Assembly: GCA_016844745.1 (NCBI GenBank)
Contig: JAERMQ010000006.1
Coordinates: 62,001-126,000 of the forward strand
DNA from: Ignavibacteria bacterium
Lineage (GTDB): Bacteria; Bacteroidota; Ignavibacteria; Kapaibacteriales; UBA2268
Length of the DNA: 64,000 bases
Direction of reading: 5' to 3'
Shown here: positions 1,136-61,951 of the stretch, piece by piece
Position numbering within the stretch: the first letter of the stretch is position 1
Layout of the letters: every line of letters begins with the position of its first letter
Notes under the pieces: model-generated
Database searches by the model: none
What the model was told of the DNA's origin: nothing
What the model saw: only the letters and a program-made list of their open reading frames with translations
Made by a program: the position numbers and the translations under genes

Positions 1136-2179
1136 ATGGCAAAAAATAATCGAAAATTTCGCATAGCTTTGGATGCAATGGGAAGTGACTATGCACCCGA
1201 AAGCGAGGTTCGAGGCGCTATTCTTGCGTTCGAAGCGCTAAAAAACGAAATTGATATTGAAATAATCTATGCGGGCAATGAAACCGAAATCAATAAAATA
1301 TTGACCGGGATTACGCCTCGAGATTTTAAATATTCAATCCTTCATGCCGATGAAGTGGTCACTATGGATGATGAACCTACTGTCGCTTTGAAAAGGAAGC
1401 GGAATTCTTCCATGTTCAAAGGCTTGGAATTGCAGGCTCAGGGCAATGCAGATGCCTTTGTTTCAGCCGGTAATACGGGTGCGGTTTTAGCAACTTCTAC
1501 AGTGGTTTTGGGGAAAATCGAAGGAGTGAGCCGTCCAACTATTGGCGCATTTCTTCCTTCACGCGAAGGTACTCCGGTTTTGGTTGTCGATGTTGGCGCC
1601 AATGTTGAGTGCAAACCAAAGTTCTTATATGAATTTGCAGTAATGGGAAGTATTTGTGCAAATGAAGTTTTGGGAATTAAAAATCCAAAAGTAGGGCTTC
1701 TCAATATAGGCGAAGAAGAAACCAAAGGTAACGAACTGACACTTGCCACATATCCGTTATTAAAAAACAGCAATTTGAATTTCATCGGTAACGTCGAAGG
1801 ACGGGATGTTTTGAAAGGTGAAGCCAATGTTGTCGTTTGTGATGGTTTTGTTGGAAATATCGTTCTGAAATTCGCCGAAAGTATGCCGATATTCTTCAAG
1901 GCTCAGTTCGAGCATCATCAGGTAACAGGTTTATACCAAAATCTTAAACTAAGAGCAGCCCAATCAACTTTGAGGGAAGTCTCTTTGCCGCTCGATTCAC
2001 AGGAAAGCGGGGGAGTTCCATTACTCGGGGTTGCCGGTAATGTTATTATCGGTCATGGAAATTCTACTCCAAAAGCAATCAAAAGCATGATAATGCAAGC
2101 AGTTACGCTTATACAAAATGAAATAAACAAAAAAATCGAATCGGCGCTAAAACAAACCGATGATTCCAAACAGTCCTAA
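1136..2179 (+). CDS. plsX: Phosphate acyltransferase PlsX
   Basis: IALDAMGSDYAPESEVRGA start and downstream rpmF-plsX-fabH synteny. Confidence 0.95.
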   Translation: MAKNNRKFRIALDAMGSDYAPESEVRGAILAFEALKNEIDIEIIYAGNETEINKILTGITPRDFKYSILHADEVVTMDDEPTVALKRKRNSSMFKGLELQAQGNADAFVSAGNTGAVLATSTVVLGKIEGVSRPTIGAFLPSREGTPVLVVDVGANVECKPKFLYEFAVMGSICANEVLGIKNPKVGLLNIGEEETKGNELTLATYPLLKNSNLNFIGNVEGRDVLKGEANVVVCDGFVGNIVLKFAESMPIFFKAQFEHHQVTGLYQNLKLRAAQSTLREVSLPLDSQESGGVPLLGVAGNVIIGHGNSTPKAIKSMIMQAVTLIQNEINKKIESALKQTDDSKQS

Positions 2180-2193
2180 TTAGTTATTAAATT

Positions 2194-3183
2194 ATGCCAG
2201 CAACAATTACTTCAATAGCTCATTTTTTACCTCCGGATGTATTCCCGAATTCATACTTTGAGAAATATTTAGAGACCAGCCACGAATGGATTATGACTCG
2301 CTCCGGTATTGCAGAAAGACGTTTTGCAACTACAGGCGCAACTTCAGATATGATAGTACCTGCTGCTTTGGAATGTATAGAAAAAAGGGGTATTTCAAAG
2401 GATGAAATAGATTGTGTAATTGTTGCAACTGTTACTCCAGACCACATGTTCCCATGCACAGCCGCAGTAGTCCAAAGCAAACTGAATATAACTAAAGCAT
2501 GGGGATTTGATATTTCGGCTGCCTGCTCGGGTTTTCTTTTTGCCTTGCAAACTGCAGCAAGCCTTGTCGATAGCGGAGTTTGTAAAAAATTGCTGCTTTG
2601 CGGCTCTGATAAAATGTCCTCAATCATGAATATGAATGACAGGGCTCAGGCAATTCTTTTCGGCGATGGAGCCGGTGTATGCCTGCTTGAAAAATCAAAT
2701 AATCCGGAAATGGGAGTATTGGATTCATTACTCAGAATAGATGGAGCAGGCGGTCAATATCTGCATCAGGTTGCCGGCGGCAGCTTCAAGCCTGCAAGCC
2801 ATGAAACAGTAGATGCTAAGGAACATTACATTTTCCAGGATGGTCAGAATGTATTTAAAGCAGCAGTAAAAGGCATGGCTGATATATCCAGCGAAATAAT
2901 GCAAAAAAATCATCTTGCTCCGGAGGATATACGTTGGCTTGTCCCGCATCAGGCTAATCTTAGAATAATAAGCGCTACAGCCGACCGCATGGGATTGAGT
3001 ATGGATAAAGTAATGATTAATATTGAAAAATACGGAAATACTACAGCAGGAACAATACCGATTTGCCTTTCCGAATGGCTTAATAAAGGCGAAATCCAAA
3101 AAGGTGATAGATTAGTGCTATCAAGCTTTGGTGCCGGTTATACATGGGGTGCTGTGCTACTGCGCTGGGATATGAACGACTAA
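2194..3183 (+). CDS. fabH: 3-oxoacyl-ACP synthase III
   Basis: Thiolase fold, ACSGFLFAL active site, VPHQAN, NTTAGTIP motifs. Confidence 0.95.
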   Translation: MPATITSIAHFLPPDVFPNSYFEKYLETSHEWIMTRSGIAERRFATTGATSDMIVPAALECIEKRGISKDEIDCVIVATVTPDHMFPCTAAVVQSKLNITKAWGFDISAACSGFLFALQTAASLVDSGVCKKLLLCGSDKMSSIMNMNDRAQAILFGDGAGVCLLEKSNNPEMGVLDSLLRIDGAGGQYLHQVAGGSFKPASHETVDAKEHYIFQDGQNVFKAAVKGMADISSEIMQKNHLAPEDIRWLVPHQANLRIISATADRMGLSMDKVMINIEKYGNTTAGTIPICLSEWLNKGEIQKGDRLVLSSFGAGYTWGAVLLRWDMND

Positions 3184-3391
3184 TGATTAATGATTAATGG
3201 TCAATGGTTAATGGTTAATTATAAAATTATAAATTATTAGTTATGAGTTATAAGTTAAAATTTTCTTAAAAAGAAATATTATTGATTCAGAAATAACAAT
3301 TAAAAATTAATAATTTGAAAATCATGGTAATCATTTAATCAAGTAAATCAAGGTTCAGACAATTAAAATCAAGGTTCAGACAATAAATATA

Positions 3392-4315
3392 ATGAAAACA
3401 GCCATATTATGCTCAGGTCAAGGCTCTCAGTACGTAGGAATGTTAAAGGATATTTCCGAACATTTTCCTACTACTTTAGGCAAAATTAGTCTTGCCGATG
3501 AGCTGATTGGTTATAAATTAAGTGAAATCTGTTTCGATGGTCCTCCGGATTTATTAAAAGAAACAAGAAATACCCAACCTGCATTATTTTTACATTCTGC
3601 CGTTGTTTATGACCTGATTAAGGAACTGCTCGAAGTTAATGCAGCAGCGGGACACTCAGTTGGTGAGTATGCTGCTCTTTATGCAGCCGGAGTATTATCT
3701 TTTGTAGATGCTTTTAAACTTGTCGCTCTGCGTGGAAAATTAATGTTCGAGGCAGGGGAGAAACTCCCAGGCACTATGTTTGCCGTTATTGGATTGGAAG
3801 ATGAAAAAGTGGAAGCCGTTTGCAGGGAATTAACTGAATCCGGTAATGGAAATGTTGTCGTAGCTGCTAATTTCAACTGTCCTTCACAGGTAGTTGTTTC
3901 AGGTTCGGCGGAATATTTACGCAATAATACGGCAGCATTCAAGCAAGCAGGGGCAAAAATCGTTAAAGAGCTTGTCGTTAGCGGAGCATTTCATTCACCT
4001 TTAATGAAACCTGCAAAGGAGGAATTAGAGAAGGCTATTCTTGCAACCAATTTCAATACTGCACGTATTCCGGTATATTCGAATGTTTATGCTAAACCGT
4101 TGACAGATTCGGATGAACTTAAAAATGCATTGATTATGCAGCTCGAATCTCCGGTTTTATGGACACAATCAATTAAGAAAATATATGAGGACGGAATAAA
4201 TAATTTTATTGAGGTTGGTGCGGGCAATGTCCTTCAGGGATTAGTAAAAAGGATTGTATCTGATTCTCAAATTAGCGGATTTGATAAAGTAAGCGATATA
4301 ACCGAAAAATTGTAA
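3392..4315 (+). CDS. fabD: Malonyl-CoA:ACP transacylase
   Basis: GQGSQ, GHSVGEYAAL, AFHSPLM motifs. Confidence 0.95.
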   Translation: MKTAILCSGQGSQYVGMLKDISEHFPTTLGKISLADELIGYKLSEICFDGPPDLLKETRNTQPALFLHSAVVYDLIKELLEVNAAAGHSVGEYAALYAAGVLSFVDAFKLVALRGKLMFEAGEKLPGTMFAVIGLEDEKVEAVCRELTESGNGNVVVAANFNCPSQVVVSGSAEYLRNNTAAFKQAGAKIVKELVVSGAFHSPLMKPAKEELEKAILATNFNTARIPVYSNVYAKPLTDSDELKNALIMQLESPVLWTQSIKKIYEDGINNFIEVGAGNVLQGLVKRIVSDSQISGFDKVSDITEKL

Positions 4316-4381
4316 TAACCAAAAATTTCGTATATTGTAAGTCTATAACTTTGATTAAAATATAGTTAAATAAATTTGTAA

Positions 4382-5128
4382 ATGGAAAAAAAATTAGAAG
4401 GAAAAATAGCTGTAATAACCGGAGGTTGCCGTGGAATAGGTAAAGCTATGGTCGAATTGTTTGCAAGGCAGGGAGCTATTGTCTATACAATTGACCATGT
4501 CATTCCACAGGAAGGCGAAGCTTTTATCGAAGACGCAGAAATAGCTTCTTCAATTGCCTGCCTTCAAGCCGATGTTACAAAAGAAGAATCGGTTAATAAT
4601 GCATTTGCCGAAATACTGAAACGAAGCAATAGAATAGATATACTTATTAACAATGCCGGTATAACACGTGATAATCTATTGTTGAGGCTTTCCGAACAGG
4701 ATTGGGATGCCGTTTTAGACACAAATCTTAAAGGCGCTTTCCTTTGCACAAAAGCCGTTGCCAAGCCGATGATGGCTCAGAGGGCAGGGAGAATAATTAA
4801 TATTGCATCAGTCGTAGGACAAATCGGCAATGCAGGACAATCAAACTATTCAGCTTCCAAAGCTGGGATGTTCGGATTTACCAAATCAATAGCGCGTGAG
4901 TTGTCTTCGCGGAATATACTTGTGAATTGTATAGCTCCGGGCTATGTTAGAACGCCGATGACTGAAAAATTAACAGACGAGCAGAAACAGGCTTTTATTC
5001 AGAATATACCGCTTAAACGTGTTGCAGAGCCGCTCGATATTGCAAATGCCGCTTCTTTTTTAGCTTCCGACGAATCATCATATATTACAGGTCATGTGCT
5101 GCACGTAAATGGCGGAATGGCAATGTAA
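4382..5128 (+). CDS. fabG: 3-oxoacyl-ACP reductase
   Basis: SDR motifs TGGCRGIG, NNAG, YSASKAG. Confidence 0.95.
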   Translation: MEKKLEGKIAVITGGCRGIGKAMVELFARQGAIVYTIDHVIPQEGEAFIEDAEIASSIACLQADVTKEESVNNAFAEILKRSNRIDILINNAGITRDNLLLRLSEQDWDAVLDTNLKGAFLCTKAVAKPMMAQRAGRIINIASVVGQIGNAGQSNYSASKAGMFGFTKSIARELSSRNILVNCIAPGYVRTPMTEKLTDEQKQAFIQNIPLKRVAEPLDIANAASFLASDESSYITGHVLHVNGGMAM

Positions 5129-5191
5129 GAAAATTGAAATAATGTTTTTTTATTTATAATTCATATTTGTAAAATTTTTTTGAGGTTTAAA

Positions 5192-5431
5192 ATGGCTGAT
5201 TTAAAGCAAAAAGTTGTCGAAATAATCGTAAGAAAACTCGGTGTCGAAGAAACACAGGTTACAGATTCTGCATCCTTTACGAAGGATTTGGGAGCAGATT
5301 CACTTGATACTGTCGAGCTTATCATGGAATTCGAAAAAGAATTCGGTATTACGATTGAAGATAGCGATGCCGAAAAAATTCAAACCGTCAGCAATGTTGT
5401 TAATTATTTGACAGAGAAAACAGTATCATAA
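5192..5431 (+). CDS. acpP: Acyl carrier protein
   Basis: [17 protein letters not shown] phosphopantetheine site; ATG at 5192 preferred over the track's TTG at 5180. Confidence 0.95.
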
Positions 5432-5462
5432 TTTGAAAATGTAATAATTAAAAGAAAAGGCT

Positions 5463-6719
5463 ATGCCAAAATATAATTTCCCCCGAGTGGTAGTAACCGG
5501 CTTAGGTACCGTTTCTCCAATCGGGAATTCAGTTGCCGAATTCTGGCAATCGATGATGGAAGGGAAAAGCGGAACCGGACCAATTACCCGGTTCGACCCT
5601 GTAAATCATGATACCAAATTTGCCAACGAATTAAAAAACTACGACCCGTTGCTGCATATGAACCGTAAAGAAGTCCAGCGAATGGATTTGTTTTGTCAAT
5701 ATGCAATCTCTGCCGCAACCATGGCTGTTGAAGATGCAGCAATAAATTTCGAAACACTCGATAGGGAACGAATCGGGGTAATATTCGGTTCCGGAATCGG
5801 TGGAATGTGGACTTACCATCATCAAATGCTGAATTTATTCGAAGCCGATGGAAACCCGCATAGAATATCACCTTTCTTTGTTCCGATGCTTATTTCCGAT
5901 ATTGCGGCAGGTCATATCGCAATACGGTGGGGATTGAAAGGTCCTAATTATGCAACGGTATCGGCTTGTGCAACATCTTCTCATGCAATATCAGATGCTT
6001 TTATGCTTATTCAACGGGGAAATGCCGATATGATTCTTTGCGGAGGCAGTGAATCTGTCGTTTGCCCAATGGGAATAGGCGGCTTCAACTCAATGAAAGC
6101 ATTATCTACACGCAATGATAATCCCGAATCAGCAAGCCGTCCTTTTGATAAAGACAGGGATGGATTTGTTATGGGTGAAGGCGGTGGCATTATTGTTATA
6201 GAAAGCTATGAACATGCTATGGATCGCGGAGCGAAGATTTACGCCGAGCTTGCCGGTATTGGTCTTACCGATGATGCTTTCCATATTACTCAACCATCCG
6301 AAGGAGGCGAAGGTGCTGTCCGGTCGATGAGAATTTGCCTCGAAGATGCAGGTTTGGTGCCGGAAGATATTGATTATATCAATGCTCATGGTACATCCAC
6401 TCCATATAATGATAAAAATGAAACCCAGGCGATTAAAACGTTATTCGGCGCTCATGCATATAAAATGAAAATCAGCTCGACTAAATCAATGACCGGTCAT
6501 TTGCTTGGCGCTGCCGGAGCTGTCGAAGCCATTGCTTCCGTTATGGCTTTAAAAGAACAGACTGCTCCACCAACTATAAACTATATAACTCCGGACCCTG
6601 AATGTGATTTGGATTATACTCCGAATAAACCCGCTAAACACAGGATTAAAGCTGTGATTAGCAATACATTCGGATTCGGTGGTCATAATGCTTCTTTATG
6701 CTTTAAAGAATTAGAATAA
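5463..6719 (+). CDS. fabF: 3-oxoacyl-ACP synthase II
   Basis: KAS motifs ACATSSHA, NAHGTSTPYND, KSMTGHLLGAAG. Confidence 0.95.
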   Translation: MPKYNFPRVVVTGLGTVSPIGNSVAEFWQSMMEGKSGTGPITRFDPVNHDTKFANELKNYDPLLHMNRKEVQRMDLFCQYAISAATMAVEDAAINFETLDRERIGVIFGSGIGGMWTYHHQMLNLFEADGNPHRISPFFVPMLISDIAAGHIAIRWGLKGPNYATVSACATSSHAISDAFMLIQRGNADMILCGGSESVVCPMGIGGFNSMKALSTRNDNPESASRPFDKDRDGFVMGEGGGIIVIESYEHAMDRGAKIYAELAGIGLTDDAFHITQPSEGGEGAVRSMRICLEDAGLVPEDIDYINAHGTSTPYNDKNETQAIKTLFGAHAYKMKISSTKSMTGHLLGAAGAVEAIASVMALKEQTAPPTINYITPDPECDLDYTPNKPAKHRIKAVISNTFGFGGHNASLCFKELE

Positions 6720-6777
6720 GCTAAATTGAAATACCGGCAGAGTTTTAAATGACATCCTGCCGGTAAATAAATCGTAG

Positions 6778-7668
6778 ATGATAAGAAATATGTTTCGCTA
6801 TTTATACAACATCATACTCCGGCGTAAATATTTTAACAAGCTTAGATTCCTTGCTCGCAGTCATACTTACAATGTAAAATGGCTGGGCATCCTACCTGAA
6901 AATAAAAAATCGGACATCGAAAAAACATTCAATTTAAAAATTAAAAATCTCGGCTATTACGAGCAGGCATTTACTCATAGGTCTTACCTCCAGATTTCTA
7001 CTTTTTCGAAGAGCAAATCTAACGAAAGAATGGAATTTTTAGGTGATGCCATTTTAGGTTTTATTGTAGGGGAGTTTTTATTTACAAGTTATTCGGACTC
7101 ATTCGAAGGTGATTTAACCAAAATGCGTTCCTGGCTTGTCAATAAAAATTCTCTTGCTCTTTGTGCGCGTAAACTTGGTTTATCTCAATTTATTTTACTT
7201 AGTCACAGCGCTGAACGTTCGCTTCGTACCGGCAGTGATTCTATGTTAGCCGATTGTCTGGAAGCGGTTATTGCAGCTATTTATTTAGATGGAGGATTTT
7301 CTATAGTTAAGCAGTTCATTCTCGAAAAACTTCTTCCAATAATAATGAATGATATTGAAATGGAGGACTCAAATTACAAAAGTATTTTGCTTGAAAGTTT
7401 ACAAGCTAAATGCAAAAAGGCTCCCAGTTATGTTATTATTGAAGAGAAAGGACCAGACCACGACAAAGAATTTATAATTGGGGTTTACTTAGATAGAGTT
7501 TTAATGGGACAAGGAACCGGTAAAAGCAAAAAACAAGCTGAACAATTGGCAGCACAAAATGCTTTGGAGAATGGTATTAATATTATCGAAACAGAAGAAG
7601 ATGTAGAAAATTATGAAATAAGTGAAATTGATAGCAATGAAAATGAAATGAATGATGGTTCAGATTAA
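6778..7668 (+). CDS. rnc: Ribonuclease III
   Basis: NERMEFLGDAILG signature plus C-terminal dsRBD. Confidence 0.93.
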   Translation: MIRNMFRYLYNIILRRKYFNKLRFLARSHTYNVKWLGILPENKKSDIEKTFNLKIKNLGYYEQAFTHRSYLQISTFSKSKSNERMEFLGDAILGFIVGEFLFTSYSDSFEGDLTKMRSWLVNKNSLALCARKLGLSQFILLSHSAERSLRTGSDSMLADCLEAVIAAIYLDGGFSIVKQFILEKLLPIIMNDIEMEDSNYKSILLESLQAKCKKAPSYVIIEEKGPDHDKEFIIGVYLDRVLMGQGTGKSKKQAEQLAAQNALENGINIIETEEDVENYEISEIDSNENEMNDGSD

Positions 7669-7704: not shown

Positions 7705-7786
7705 AGAATGTCATTCGTAAGCGAATTGAAGAATCCAGTCCAAAAACCGTTTCTGGATTCTTCACTTCGCTTACGAATGACATTCT
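7705..7786. repeat. Inverted repeat (34-bp arms, 1 mismatch): AGAATGTCATTCGTAAGCGAATTGAAGAATCCAG ... CTGGATTCTTCACTTCGCTTACGAATGACATTCT
   Basis: Arms 7705-7738 and 7753-7786 read directly. Confidence 0.9.
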
Positions 7787-26313: not shown

Positions 26314-26407
26314 TTAAAACAAGAGAAACCCCCTAACCCCCTTTGAAAAAGGGGGAACATTTATACCCCCTTTTTCAAAGGGGGTTAGGGGGTTTCTCTT
26401 GTTTTAA
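26314..26407. repeat. 94-bp perfect inverted repeat, 42-bp arms, 10-bp loop (CCCCCTAACCCCCTTTGAAAAAGGGGG)
   Basis: Arms compared base by base. Confidence 0.95.
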
Positions 26408-28665: not shown

Positions 28666-28687
28666 TATTTGAAAATTTGAAAATGGG

Positions 28688-28817
28688 CAGAATGTCATTC
28701 TGAGCGGAGCGAAGAATCTTCTTGAATAAAAGATGAGAGTTGAATTAGGAAAGTTATTAAAAATGAATATTTCAGAATTTGCGAGAAGATTCTTCACTTC
28801 GTTCAGAATGACATTCT
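28688..28817. repeat. Inverted pair of GAATGTCATTCTGAGCGGAGCGAAGAATCTTCT, arms 28688-28722 / 28784-28817
   Basis: Read directly. Confidence 0.85.
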
Positions 28818-28960
28818 TCTTGATTTAAGTTTTTATAGTAATTCAAGAATCCAGATTCAGAGCGGTTCAGGTGATTCCTGCATTCGCAGGAATGACATTT
28901 AACAACTATTTTTTCAAAACTTTTAAAGAATATTTTATTAACTTTATAATCGAGGAAAAC

Positions 28961-38822: not shown

Positions 38823-38977
38823 TGAGGATAAAGGTATTGTGTAAAGACGTTGCATGCAACGTCTCTACAAAAATATTTTACCTTCTTATAAATCAATGCG
38901 TTCATCTTTGACTAAATTTTCTTAATTTTACATACGATACTTCCTCTTCCATAAGGAGAAGAAATATCGTACGGAAA

Positions 38978-39142: not shown

Positions 39143-41494
39143 ATGAGCGCACGTTCCTTCTACAGCGATGAATTGCACGAAGCACATTCATTGGAAATCC
39201 CGTCCGAACTATACGAAACACGTCCTATTATCGAAGGCTATACTATCGATGGTCCCGATTCGAAAGATTTGGACGACGGCATCAACTTAACAAAATACGA
39301 TGACCATTATAATCTCCAGGTCTCGATTGCCGACGTTGCGGAGTTAATCAAACCTCATTCGATGCTTTTCCATACTGCTTTGGAACGATGTGCTACCCGC
39401 TATTATTTAGAGCGAAACAATCCAATGCTTCCGCGCATAATTTCCGAAGATAAATTGAGTTTGCATCCCGACAAACTGACTCCCGCCATTACTTATGATA
39501 TGAACATCACACCGGAAGGGGAATTAATCGATATTACTTTCCGTGAAACCATGTTCAGGAATATCCGCCGTTTGTCATATTTCGGATTCGATAAAATAAT
39601 AACCGAATGTTACACTGACCCCGATTACGTGAAATTTATGGATATGGCGAACTTTGCCAATTATCTCATCGACCAGCGCAGACAGAAAGGAGCATTTGCA
39701 ATTTATGATTTAATTAATAAGCTATTCACTTCCGAAGAAGGAGTCATCAAGCCGCTTCCCAACCATCTTGCGCATATAAGCAATATCGTCATCCAGGAAT
39801 TTATGATTTTTACGAATAAATCTGTCTCATGGTTTTTCGCGGAAAAGCAAATCCCTTTTGTCTTCCGTAATCATACAGTAAGGCAGAATGCGCCTAAACG
39901 AAGCGATATTTTACAGCAGATGAACATGGTACTGATTAATCCAAAGTACCTGGATTCCTTACGGAAACGAAGCCGCATCTGGTATAACCGCGCTAATTAC
40001 GGCACTGAATTAATCGGGCATTTCGGCTTGAATGAAGATTGCTATTCGCATATAACCTCGCCAATCCGAAGGGTTCCCGATTTATTAGACGAATATATCA
40101 TCAAAGCATATATTCATGGAACGGAAAGCCCTCTCAAGCCTGATGAACTAAATGGTTATATCGAAGGTATAAATGCCGTAATGAATGAAATAAAAGATGA
40201 AAGGAAAATATATCTGAAGGAAAAAGAGCAATTTGCTGCTAAAATGAAAATGGAAAATGCTACAGCCGAAGAATTTGCAGCTATTAGTATGGATGAATTT
40301 CATCTAATCCTGAAAGACTCAATTAAACTGAACGAAAAGCATGAAAATATTGAAAAGGCTTTGCAATTAAGATATGAAACCAACCGGATTGACGTTAATA
40401 TTATTTACCTCATTCTTACAGAAGCTGCCGGGAAGAAGAGTATTTGGCTGAAGCATGTAAAAACCGCACTTGCATATCTCCTGAAAAAAAAGGGAATGCC
40501 AATGCAAATCTTAGAAATGCTCCAGCAGAAGGATAAAATCAAGCGATATGCTTATGAATGGGAGAATGCCGAAGGCGAAATCGGGCTGCGTATGCAAGAA
40601 TGGGTCGATGCTGATGGTAAGTTCAAAGCCAGGGTGAAAGCAAAAGTCAGGGATAAAATCATTAAACCGAATACTTTTTCCGAAGGCAGCTCCAGAACCC
40701 AGGCGAAGCAGCGGGCTATATTTGATTTCCTGCGTTTCTATTTCAAGCTTACAATGAGTGCGTTGATGAAAAAGAAACCGGTTGGTTCTGAAGGAAGTGA
40801 ACTTTCCGAAAGTTCCGAACTTTCGGAAAGTTTAAATGATGATGAACTAATTGCAGCACTTGAGGAATCAGGTTTGAATGAAGATAATATTGAAGGGACA
40901 ATTGAGCAATTTAATGAATGGGAATTGAAGAAGCAGGATGAAGATGCTAAACAAAGCCCTGCAGAAAAAACAAAGTCCGAAATAAATTATATTGGCGCAT
41001 TGCAGGAATTCTGCGTAACCCATGATTCGGTTTCAGAGCCGGAGTTTGAATTTACACTCTCAGGAGAAGCCCATGCTCCGAGGGTTACCTGCATCGGTAC
41101 TTTATCAACGGATAAAGGGAAAATAGAACGGCAGGTTGTTTCGACCACCAAGAAACTTGCTAAGCAGGCAGTTAGTTTTTTATTAATCAATGCCATTAAG
41201 GAAATTAAGCCGGGCGCATCTTTCTCGAAAAATGAATTCTTAGCGCCGGCTGAAATACCGAAGGATTACTACGGGCTTATAATCGGATATTGCCAGAAGA
41301 TGAAGATACCGCCGCCGGAAGCCACATTCGAGCGTAAGGGTTATTTGCAAAGTCCGATTTTTGTTTGCAAGATAATGATTATTTTGGAAAACGGACAACA
41401 GGAGTTTACTGCGGAGAATTCTTCCAAGCAATCGGCGAAGCGGGACGCCTCGAAGCTCTGCTATGATTATTTGGTGGAGAAGCAATTGATATAA
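39143..41494 (+). CDS. RNB-domain exoribonuclease fused to (apparently) three dsRNA-binding motifs
   Basis: RNB catalytic IDGPDSKDLDD and HFGLNEDCYSHITSPIRRVPDLL; C-terminal dsRBD-like segments ~40494-40749, ~40985-41203, ~41263-41491. Confidence 0.85.
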   Translation: MSARSFYSDELHEAHSLEIPSELYETRPIIEGYTIDGPDSKDLDDGINLTKYDDHYNLQVSIADVAELIKPHSMLFHTALERCATRYYLERNNPMLPRIISEDKLSLHPDKLTPAITYDMNITPEGELIDITFRETMFRNIRRLSYFGFDKIITECYTDPDYVKFMDMANFANYLIDQRRQKGAFAIYDLINKLFTSEEGVIKPLPNHLAHISNIVIQEFMIFTNKSVSWFFAEKQIPFVFRNHTVRQNAPKRSDILQQMNMVLINPKYLDSLRKRSRIWYNRANYGTELIGHFGLNEDCYSHITSPIRRVPDLLDEYIIKAYIHGTESPLKPDELNGYIEGINAVMNEIKDERKIYLKEKEQFAAKMKMENATAEEFAAISMDEFHLILKDSIKLNEKHENIEKALQLRYETNRIDVNIIYLILTEAAGKKSIWLKHVKTALAYLLKKKGMPMQILEMLQQKDKIKRYAYEWENAEGEIGLRMQEWVDADGKFKARVKAKVRDKIIKPNTFSEGSSRTQAKQRAIFDFLRFYFKLTMSALMKKKPVGSEGSELSESSELSESLNDDELIAALEESGLNEDNIEGTIEQFNEWELKKQDEDAKQSPAEKTKSEINYIGALQEFCVTHDSVSEPEFEFTLSGEAHAPRVTCIGTLSTDKGKIERQVVSTTKKLAKQAVSFLLINAIKEIKPGASFSKNEFLAPAEIPKDYYGLIIGYCQKMKIPPPEATFERKGYLQSPIFVCKIMIILENGQQEFTAENSSKQSAKRDASKLCYDYLVEKQLI

Positions 41495-61821: not shown

Positions 61822-61951
61822 GAGTCTGTGGAAAAACTAATTATATGGATGAATGTCATTCTGAACGAAGTGAAGAATCCAGTCCCAATGCCGCTTCTGG
61901 ATTCTTCACTTCGTTCAGAATGACATTCTTCTTTACTTTTTCAACAGGCTC
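61822..61951. mobile_element. MITE-like element: TIR GAGTCTGTGGAAAAAC / GAGCCTGTTGAAAAAG, flanked by CTAA on both sides, internal 32-bp perfect inverted repeat
   Basis: CTAA at 61818-61821 and 61952-61955; arms 61851-61882 / 61897-61928. Confidence 0.7.

Follow-up and report, generated by a model that had tools for sequence, protein, structure and literature searches.

RNB exonucleases are standard textbook RNases. In bacterial RNase R (TIGR02063; B. subtilis 8CDU, E. coli 5XGU, M. genitalium 7DIC), the RNB domain is accompanied by an HTH domain, two cold-shock domains (CSD1 and CSD2), an S1 domain and a K/R tail. The cold-shock domains stand in the way of entering duplexes, the RNB domain alone can degrade structured RNA, and an RNase II hybrid gains the ability to degrade dsRNA from the C-terminal S1 domain and K/R extension (PMC12320835). 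Dis3L2 (8E27-8E2A), a helicase-free RNB nuclease for structured RNA, relies on mobile cold-shock domains, an S1 domain and a full tri-helix wedge (P612-M669), and its cold-shock domains must swing away before a duplex reaches the core (PMC10023572). Only D. radiodurans RNase II (2R7D) and H. volcanii RNase R are named as minimal-domain exceptions in a 2025 review that covers RNase R and homologous enzymes; by its description neither has an array of double-stranded RNA-binding domains (dsRBDs), and the terms dsRBD and dsRNA-binding are absent from its text (PMC12320835). In RNase III and Dicer, too, a nuclease carries a dsRBD at its C-terminus, but these are endonucleases with an unrelated catalytic domain.

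Here we describe a gene from an Ignavibacteria bacterium, located in a 64,000-nucleotide stretch of DNA (hereafter called the window), that encodes an RNB core lacking OB-fold domains and carrying dsRBDs in their place. The protein shares its RNB fold and active site with RNase R, which is its best structural and sequence match, and the hydrolytic 3'-5' chemistry is likely the same. However, it lacks the HTH, CSD1, CSD2, S1 and K/R-tail elements of RNase R. Its RNB core is likewise comparable to that of Dis3L2, which carries no dsRBD, and its reduced set of RNB-associated accessory domains recalls the D. radiodurans and H. volcanii enzymes. Proteins of the same family and layout (e.g. WP_261891862.1 from Acaryochloris) are present in RefSeq under the automatic name 'RNB domain-containing ribonuclease', which is generic, is silent on dsRBDs and comes with no assigned function. 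We found no description of an RNB domain fused to dsRBDs in open-access full text; because subscription literature falls outside that scope, this should be read as 'not found' and not as 'does not exist'.

Domain layout of the window protein

The gene and its parts are as follows (window coordinates, all on the + strand):

39143..41494, +, complete CDS of 783 aa, RNB exoribonuclease with a C-terminal dsRBD array (ORF, Pfam, AlphaFold)
39227..40120, +, RNB catalytic core, residues 29-326 (Pfam RNB, AlphaFold, Foldseek to RNase R/II/Dis3L2)
39248..39277, +, catalytic acids D36, D42, D44 and D45 (IDGPDSKDLDD), invariant in 45/45 aligned relatives
39899..39982, +, wedge region with two helices only, 253-265 and 267-280 (motif spacing, model helices, Dis3L2 comparison)
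40055..40072, +, TSPIRR motif, residues 305-310, with R309 and R310 both invariant in 45/45
40139..40486, +, all-helical bundle after the RNB core, residues 333-448 (model; no Pfam family, no confident PDB match)
40496..40741, +, predicted dsRBD1, residues 452-533, divergent and basic (model fold with pLDDT of about 90; weak-E Foldseek)
40748..40978, +, acidic low-confidence linker, residues 536-612 (pLDDT<50 at 538-540, 542-566 and 576-612)
40988..41206, +, dsRBD2, residues 616-688, the most canonical of the three (own dsRBD HMM, model, conserved residues)
41267..41479, +, dsRBD3, residues 709-779 (Pfam dsrm 711-777, own dsRBD HMM, model)

Pfam detects the RNB domain at residues 33-325 (E 1.2e-55; 189.5 bits versus a cut-off of 29.3), and the IDGPDSKDLDD motif aligns with IDGADAKDLDD of B. 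subtilis RNase R. The catalytic acids and the TSPIRR motif are intact, as the first-pass annotation had stated: D36, D42, D44, D45, Y87, R309 and R310 are each invariant among the 45 aligned relatives. Given its domain score, its catalytic residues and its RNB fold, the protein is a member of the RNB (RNase II/R) superfamily. It is nonetheless neither RNase R nor RNase II, because all NCBIfam matches fall far below their cut-offs: 179 bits against the RNase R model TIGR02063 (equivalog cut-off 597.85), and 96.8 and 87.9 bits against the RNase II models NF003455 and TIGR02062 (542 and 641.9). The 3'-RNase superfamily model also matches far below its cut-off.

Only about 28 residues precede the RNB core, and neither Pfam nor the model reveals a cold-shock domain there, much as the first reading of the sequence had it. 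The ATG is the first start codon past an in-frame stop, which makes a longer in-frame N-terminus impossible, and most relatives are also short at this end; a frameshift or missed N-terminal cold-shock domains were rejected on these grounds. Pfam gives no match to S1, CSD2, OB_RNB or the RNase III catalytic domain even at E<=10.

An AlphaFold2 model, built from the alignment of 45 relatives (mean pLDDT 86.4), places the RNB core from residue 29, followed by the helical bundle (333-448), dsRBD1, a disordered linker (about 538-612), dsRBD2 and dsRBD3. Each of the three dsRBDs (452-533, 616-688 and 709-779) is modelled as alpha-beta-beta-beta-alpha, and the model led us to reject an OB or S1 fold in the C-terminal half. 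Thus, the checks by HMM and structure prediction support the three C-terminal dsRBDs, with no S1 domain after the RNB core, that had been proposed from the letters alone. A Foldseek search with the full model retrieved RNase R, Dis3L2, Rrp44, RNase II and the D. radiodurans enzyme (best 8cdv_C, E 1.8e-23), and next the tandem dsRBDs of Dicer-TARBP2, MLE, Loqs and DRB4 (E 1e-8 to 1e-6); a profile search of PDB sequences returned the same two sets.

The dsRBDs are not equally conspicuous. The protein meets the definition of a dsRBD (PF00035) carrier by its dsrm score (42.3 bits versus a cut-off of 23; two stretches, best 711-777) and by fold, with dsRBD1 recognized by fold only, since it is missed by Pfam and by an HMM built from the family's own dsRBDs. 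A separately modelled fragment (326-536; pLDDT 93.0) found its nearest structures in the dsRBDs of Loqs, ADAR, Xlrbpa and DHX9, at weak values (E 0.08 or worse, target TM about 0.6), and gave nothing convincing in the PDB for the helical bundle. The predicted identity of dsRBD1 therefore rests mainly on the modelled fold, together with the three dsrm stretches that Pfam detects in an orthologue (L002/L054). Residues 450-536 hold 19 K/R versus 12 D/E, and position 518 is K or R in 44 of 45 relatives. dsRBD2 has residues in each of the three regions that canonically contact dsRNA (E622 in helix 1; G641, H644 and P646 in loop 2; K670, K671 and K674 in helix 2). The contact set of dsRBD3 is partial: K762 and K766 are kept and the loop-2 His is missing. 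Because dsRBD3 lacks this His and dsRBD1 is divergent, RNA may be bound by fewer than all three domains, a point against the function proposed below.

As a separate observation, a near-perfect 33-nt palindrome (40800-40832; inverted repeat I20) lies in frame within the linker between dsRBD1 and dsRBD2, in a segment that is missing from the orthologue L002.

The RNB-dsRBD family and its shortened wedge

The layout had been presented as though it were a one-off; instead it recurs in a widespread family of about 75 relatives. A scan of genome collections, supplemented by plasmid and viral searches, recovered more than 70 relatives from Ignavibacteriota, Bacteroidota, Cyanobacteriota, Chloroflexota, Actinomycetota, Pseudomonadota, Patescibacteria, plasmids and large-phage contigs, and the motif QE[FCM]MI[LAF][TA]N, run once across GTDB genomes, matched 80 loci in at least seven bacterial phyla. 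Pfam analysis of 65 relatives, which amounts to the survey of RNB and dsrm co-occurrence recommended in the first-pass annotation, found RNB in 65/65, dsrm in 60/65, S1 or cold-shock domains in 0/65 and a winged helix in 1/65. With the family-built dsRBD HMM, nearly all members show between one and four copies, and of 32 RNase R-type proteins encoded in neighbouring genomes none gives a match.

Distribution is patchy. Profiles made from the C-terminal part find full-length members in 3/394 genomes of the class, namely the source genome, G011 (737 aa) and G232 (938 aa), and 12/246 genomes of the cyanobacterial phylum carry the gene. Searches by tblastn locate copies on plasmids of Acaryochloris, Vibrio, Streptomyces and Rhodococcus. 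Members are also present on IMG/VR contigs of up to 536 kb, with two detected dsRBDs (one in a single case), near genes for portal protein, Thy1, dNMP kinase, RNA ligase and RNA repair. Given this patchiness and the copies on mobile elements, the data suggest that the gene has spread horizontally. Two occurrences should be read with care. A copy in a Crocinitomicaceae metagenome-assembled genome (L073) hardly differs from that of Crocosphaera watsonii (L075), so it is probably a binning contamination and provides no independent evidence. A Micrarchaeota copy (L079) has no detectable dsRBD, and we consequently do not claim the full layout for archaea.

A maximum-likelihood tree computed from the RNB domain (quick search, SH-aLRT support) gathers the family into one clade (support 99), with RNase R, the HTH-type RNB proteins and the viral RNB proteins that have a long wedge on the other side. 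The exceptions under the family label are three scan matches without dsRBDs (L129, L131 and L132). The window protein clusters with three other Ignavibacteria members (support 99). The clade, which is monophyletic, is defined by an RNB domain, a short wedge, a helical bundle and at least one dsRBD, and the window protein belongs to it. HTH-type RNB proteins, such as the second RNB gene in G043 and G051, were rejected as members because they fall outside the clade. An annotation or assembly chimera of RNB and dsRBD genes was likewise rejected, given the full-length orthologues in three other Ignavibacteria and the single clade across phyla.

The wedge sets the family further apart from RNase R. 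The stretch between the R-x-H and GHF motifs, which holds the tri-helix wedge in RNase R and Dis3L2, measures 38-55 aa across 75 family members, with 46 or 52 in most of them, against 68-70 aa across 30 RNase R proteins from relatives, a shortfall of about 17-23 aa. The model of the window protein has two helices in this region (253-265 and 267-280). Among viral RNB proteins, every one that bears dsRBDs has a short wedge, and those with a long wedge have no dsRBD. Because the carriers form one clade, the shortening represents one evolutionary event and not many.

Genomic surroundings and hairpin repeats

The window gene is solitary: upstream lie approximately 560 nt of intergenic DNA rich in repeats, and the gene downstream is convergent and encodes a protein of secreted type. 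Among the neighbours of 30-odd loci, no family recurs beyond close relatives and no defence genes recur. Analysis of 121 neighbour proteins with Pfam and PADLOC revealed no repeated defence partner, with each defence model matching only 1-3 of the 121, and PADLOC has no model that matches the three RNB-dsRBD members submitted to it. A conserved operon or defence island is therefore unsupported by the neighbour comparison. A PAPS-reductase/DndC-like gene lies near three RNB-dsRBD genes (L080, L082 and L138; two Streptomyces and one viral contig), and one PAPS-reductase match is listed among the phage-contig neighbours. Elsewhere in the window, the sole RNase III gene detected in the source genome (6778-7668), which is separate from the RNB-dsRBD gene, comes last in a fatty-acid synthesis cluster (plsX, fabH, fabD, fabG and fabF; 1136-7668).

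The window also contains repeats of one hairpin family:

7705-7786, 28672-28834 and 61848-61931, hairpin repeats with arms like TTCACTTCGTTCAGAATGACA

This hairpin-arm repeat has 417 matches (<=2 mismatches) in the source genome versus 0-80 in 60 relatives, and thus the source genome is hairpin-rich. The link to local palindromes drawn in the first-pass annotation nevertheless did not hold up: G011, the other carrier in the source genome's family, has only 13 matches, fewer than several non-carriers, and co-occurrence of the gene with the repeats is unsupported. With two carriers and one repeat family, a functional link cannot be sustained. Other inverted repeats of the window include a perfect palindrome, GACGTTGCATGCAACGTC, upstream of the gene (38846-38863) and a 42-bp perfect inverted repeat with a 10-nt loop (26314-26407).

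Candidate functions

We propose, with a probability of roughly one in two, that the window protein is an accessory Mg2+-dependent 3'-5' hydrolytic RNB exoribonuclease that selects structured or double-stranded RNA. Targeting to structured RNA can soundly be inferred from the domains, and our best reading is of an accessory, horizontally spread exonuclease whose dsRBD arm would bring it to such RNA. Since an ordinary RNase R is also encoded in the source genome (as it is in G011), the window copy is likely specialised. Sequence and model together show that the RNB active site is intact, that there is no gate made of CSD1, CSD2 and S1, that the wedge is shortened, and that the C-terminal helical bundle is joined by three dsRBDs whose tether is partly flexible. 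The dsRBD arm, mainly dsRBD2 and dsRBD3, may grip an A-form duplex and hold it beside the RNB funnel, taking on the recruiting role that the OB-fold domains have in RNase R. The 3' end would then thread into the open RNB core for digestion. Because no cold-shock domain blocks access, the duplex could be opened by thermal breathing and the power of hydrolysis. The predicted outcome is the clearing of hairpin-rich, antisense-paired or foreign double-stranded transcripts, which the housekeeping RNase R would handle less well.

By analogy with Dis3L2, the shortened wedge may count against digestion through duplexes. When that enzyme is stripped of the whole tri-helix together with the linker (P612-M669), it no longer degrades duplexes but still degrades single strands (PMC10023572). 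The D. radiodurans minimal RNB enzyme, which behaves like RNase II (PMC12320835), also counts against such digestion. A serious rival, given the shortened wedge, is therefore that the enzyme trims 3' ends up to the duplex. The dsRBDs would hold on to the duplex and serve as a brake or ruler while the wedge-poor core removes only a single-stranded 3' tail, leaving the hairpin in place and perhaps protected; such an activity could serve the maturation of small RNAs, terminator ends or antisense duplexes. The wedge is short in every family member measured, and Dis3L2 lacking the tri-helix accumulates products with 2-3-nt overhangs from hairpins yet digests single strands (PMC10023572). However, the wedge is only partly missing here, Dis3L2 variants with single-helix deletions show no such block (PMC10023572), the lone RNB domain of RNase R still unwinds (PMC12320835), and the neighbourhood offers no specific RNA partner gene. 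We consider trimming possible, though less probable than digestion of the duplex.

The copies on plasmids and in phage contigs, along with the patchy spread, might instead reflect a dsRNA exonuclease used by mobile elements as a weapon or shield, removing the antisense or dsRNA intermediates of rivals or the dsRNA signals of the host. Against this, PADLOC does not recognize the protein, the surveyed loci share no recurrent defence genes, many copies look chromosomal (Glycomyces, Thermogemmatispora, Streptomyces), and the window copy is an isolated gene flanked by genes whose products are secreted; we judge such a role improbable. Still more remote is a protein with an idle nuclease core that acts through its dsRBDs in the manner of yeast Ssd1 or Zam, for although RNB-family pseudonucleases exist (PMC9145284; PMC8934651), the four catalytic Asp residues, Tyr87 and both Arg residues are invariant in 45/45 relatives, unlike the degenerate active site of Zam.

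Returning to an exonuclease that digests structured or double-stranded RNA, we tentatively extend this reading to the clade, which might constitute a distinct, horizontally mobile, dsRNA-dedicated exonuclease class of bacteria, plasmids and large phages, wherein a dsRBD arm would have taken the place of both the gate formed by OB folds and a portion of the wedge. If true, this somewhat doubtful generalization would offer a different route to helicase-free degradation of duplex RNA. The recurrent branch appears under generic automatic names only, and it offers a natural experiment in the handling of dsRNA by RNB enzymes, having gained duplex-binding domains while lacking the cold-shock domains, the S1 domain and part of the wedge that are thought to govern unwinding. 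Moreover, the copies on plasmids and in large phages point to roles for dsRNA turnover in the biology of bacterial mobile elements.
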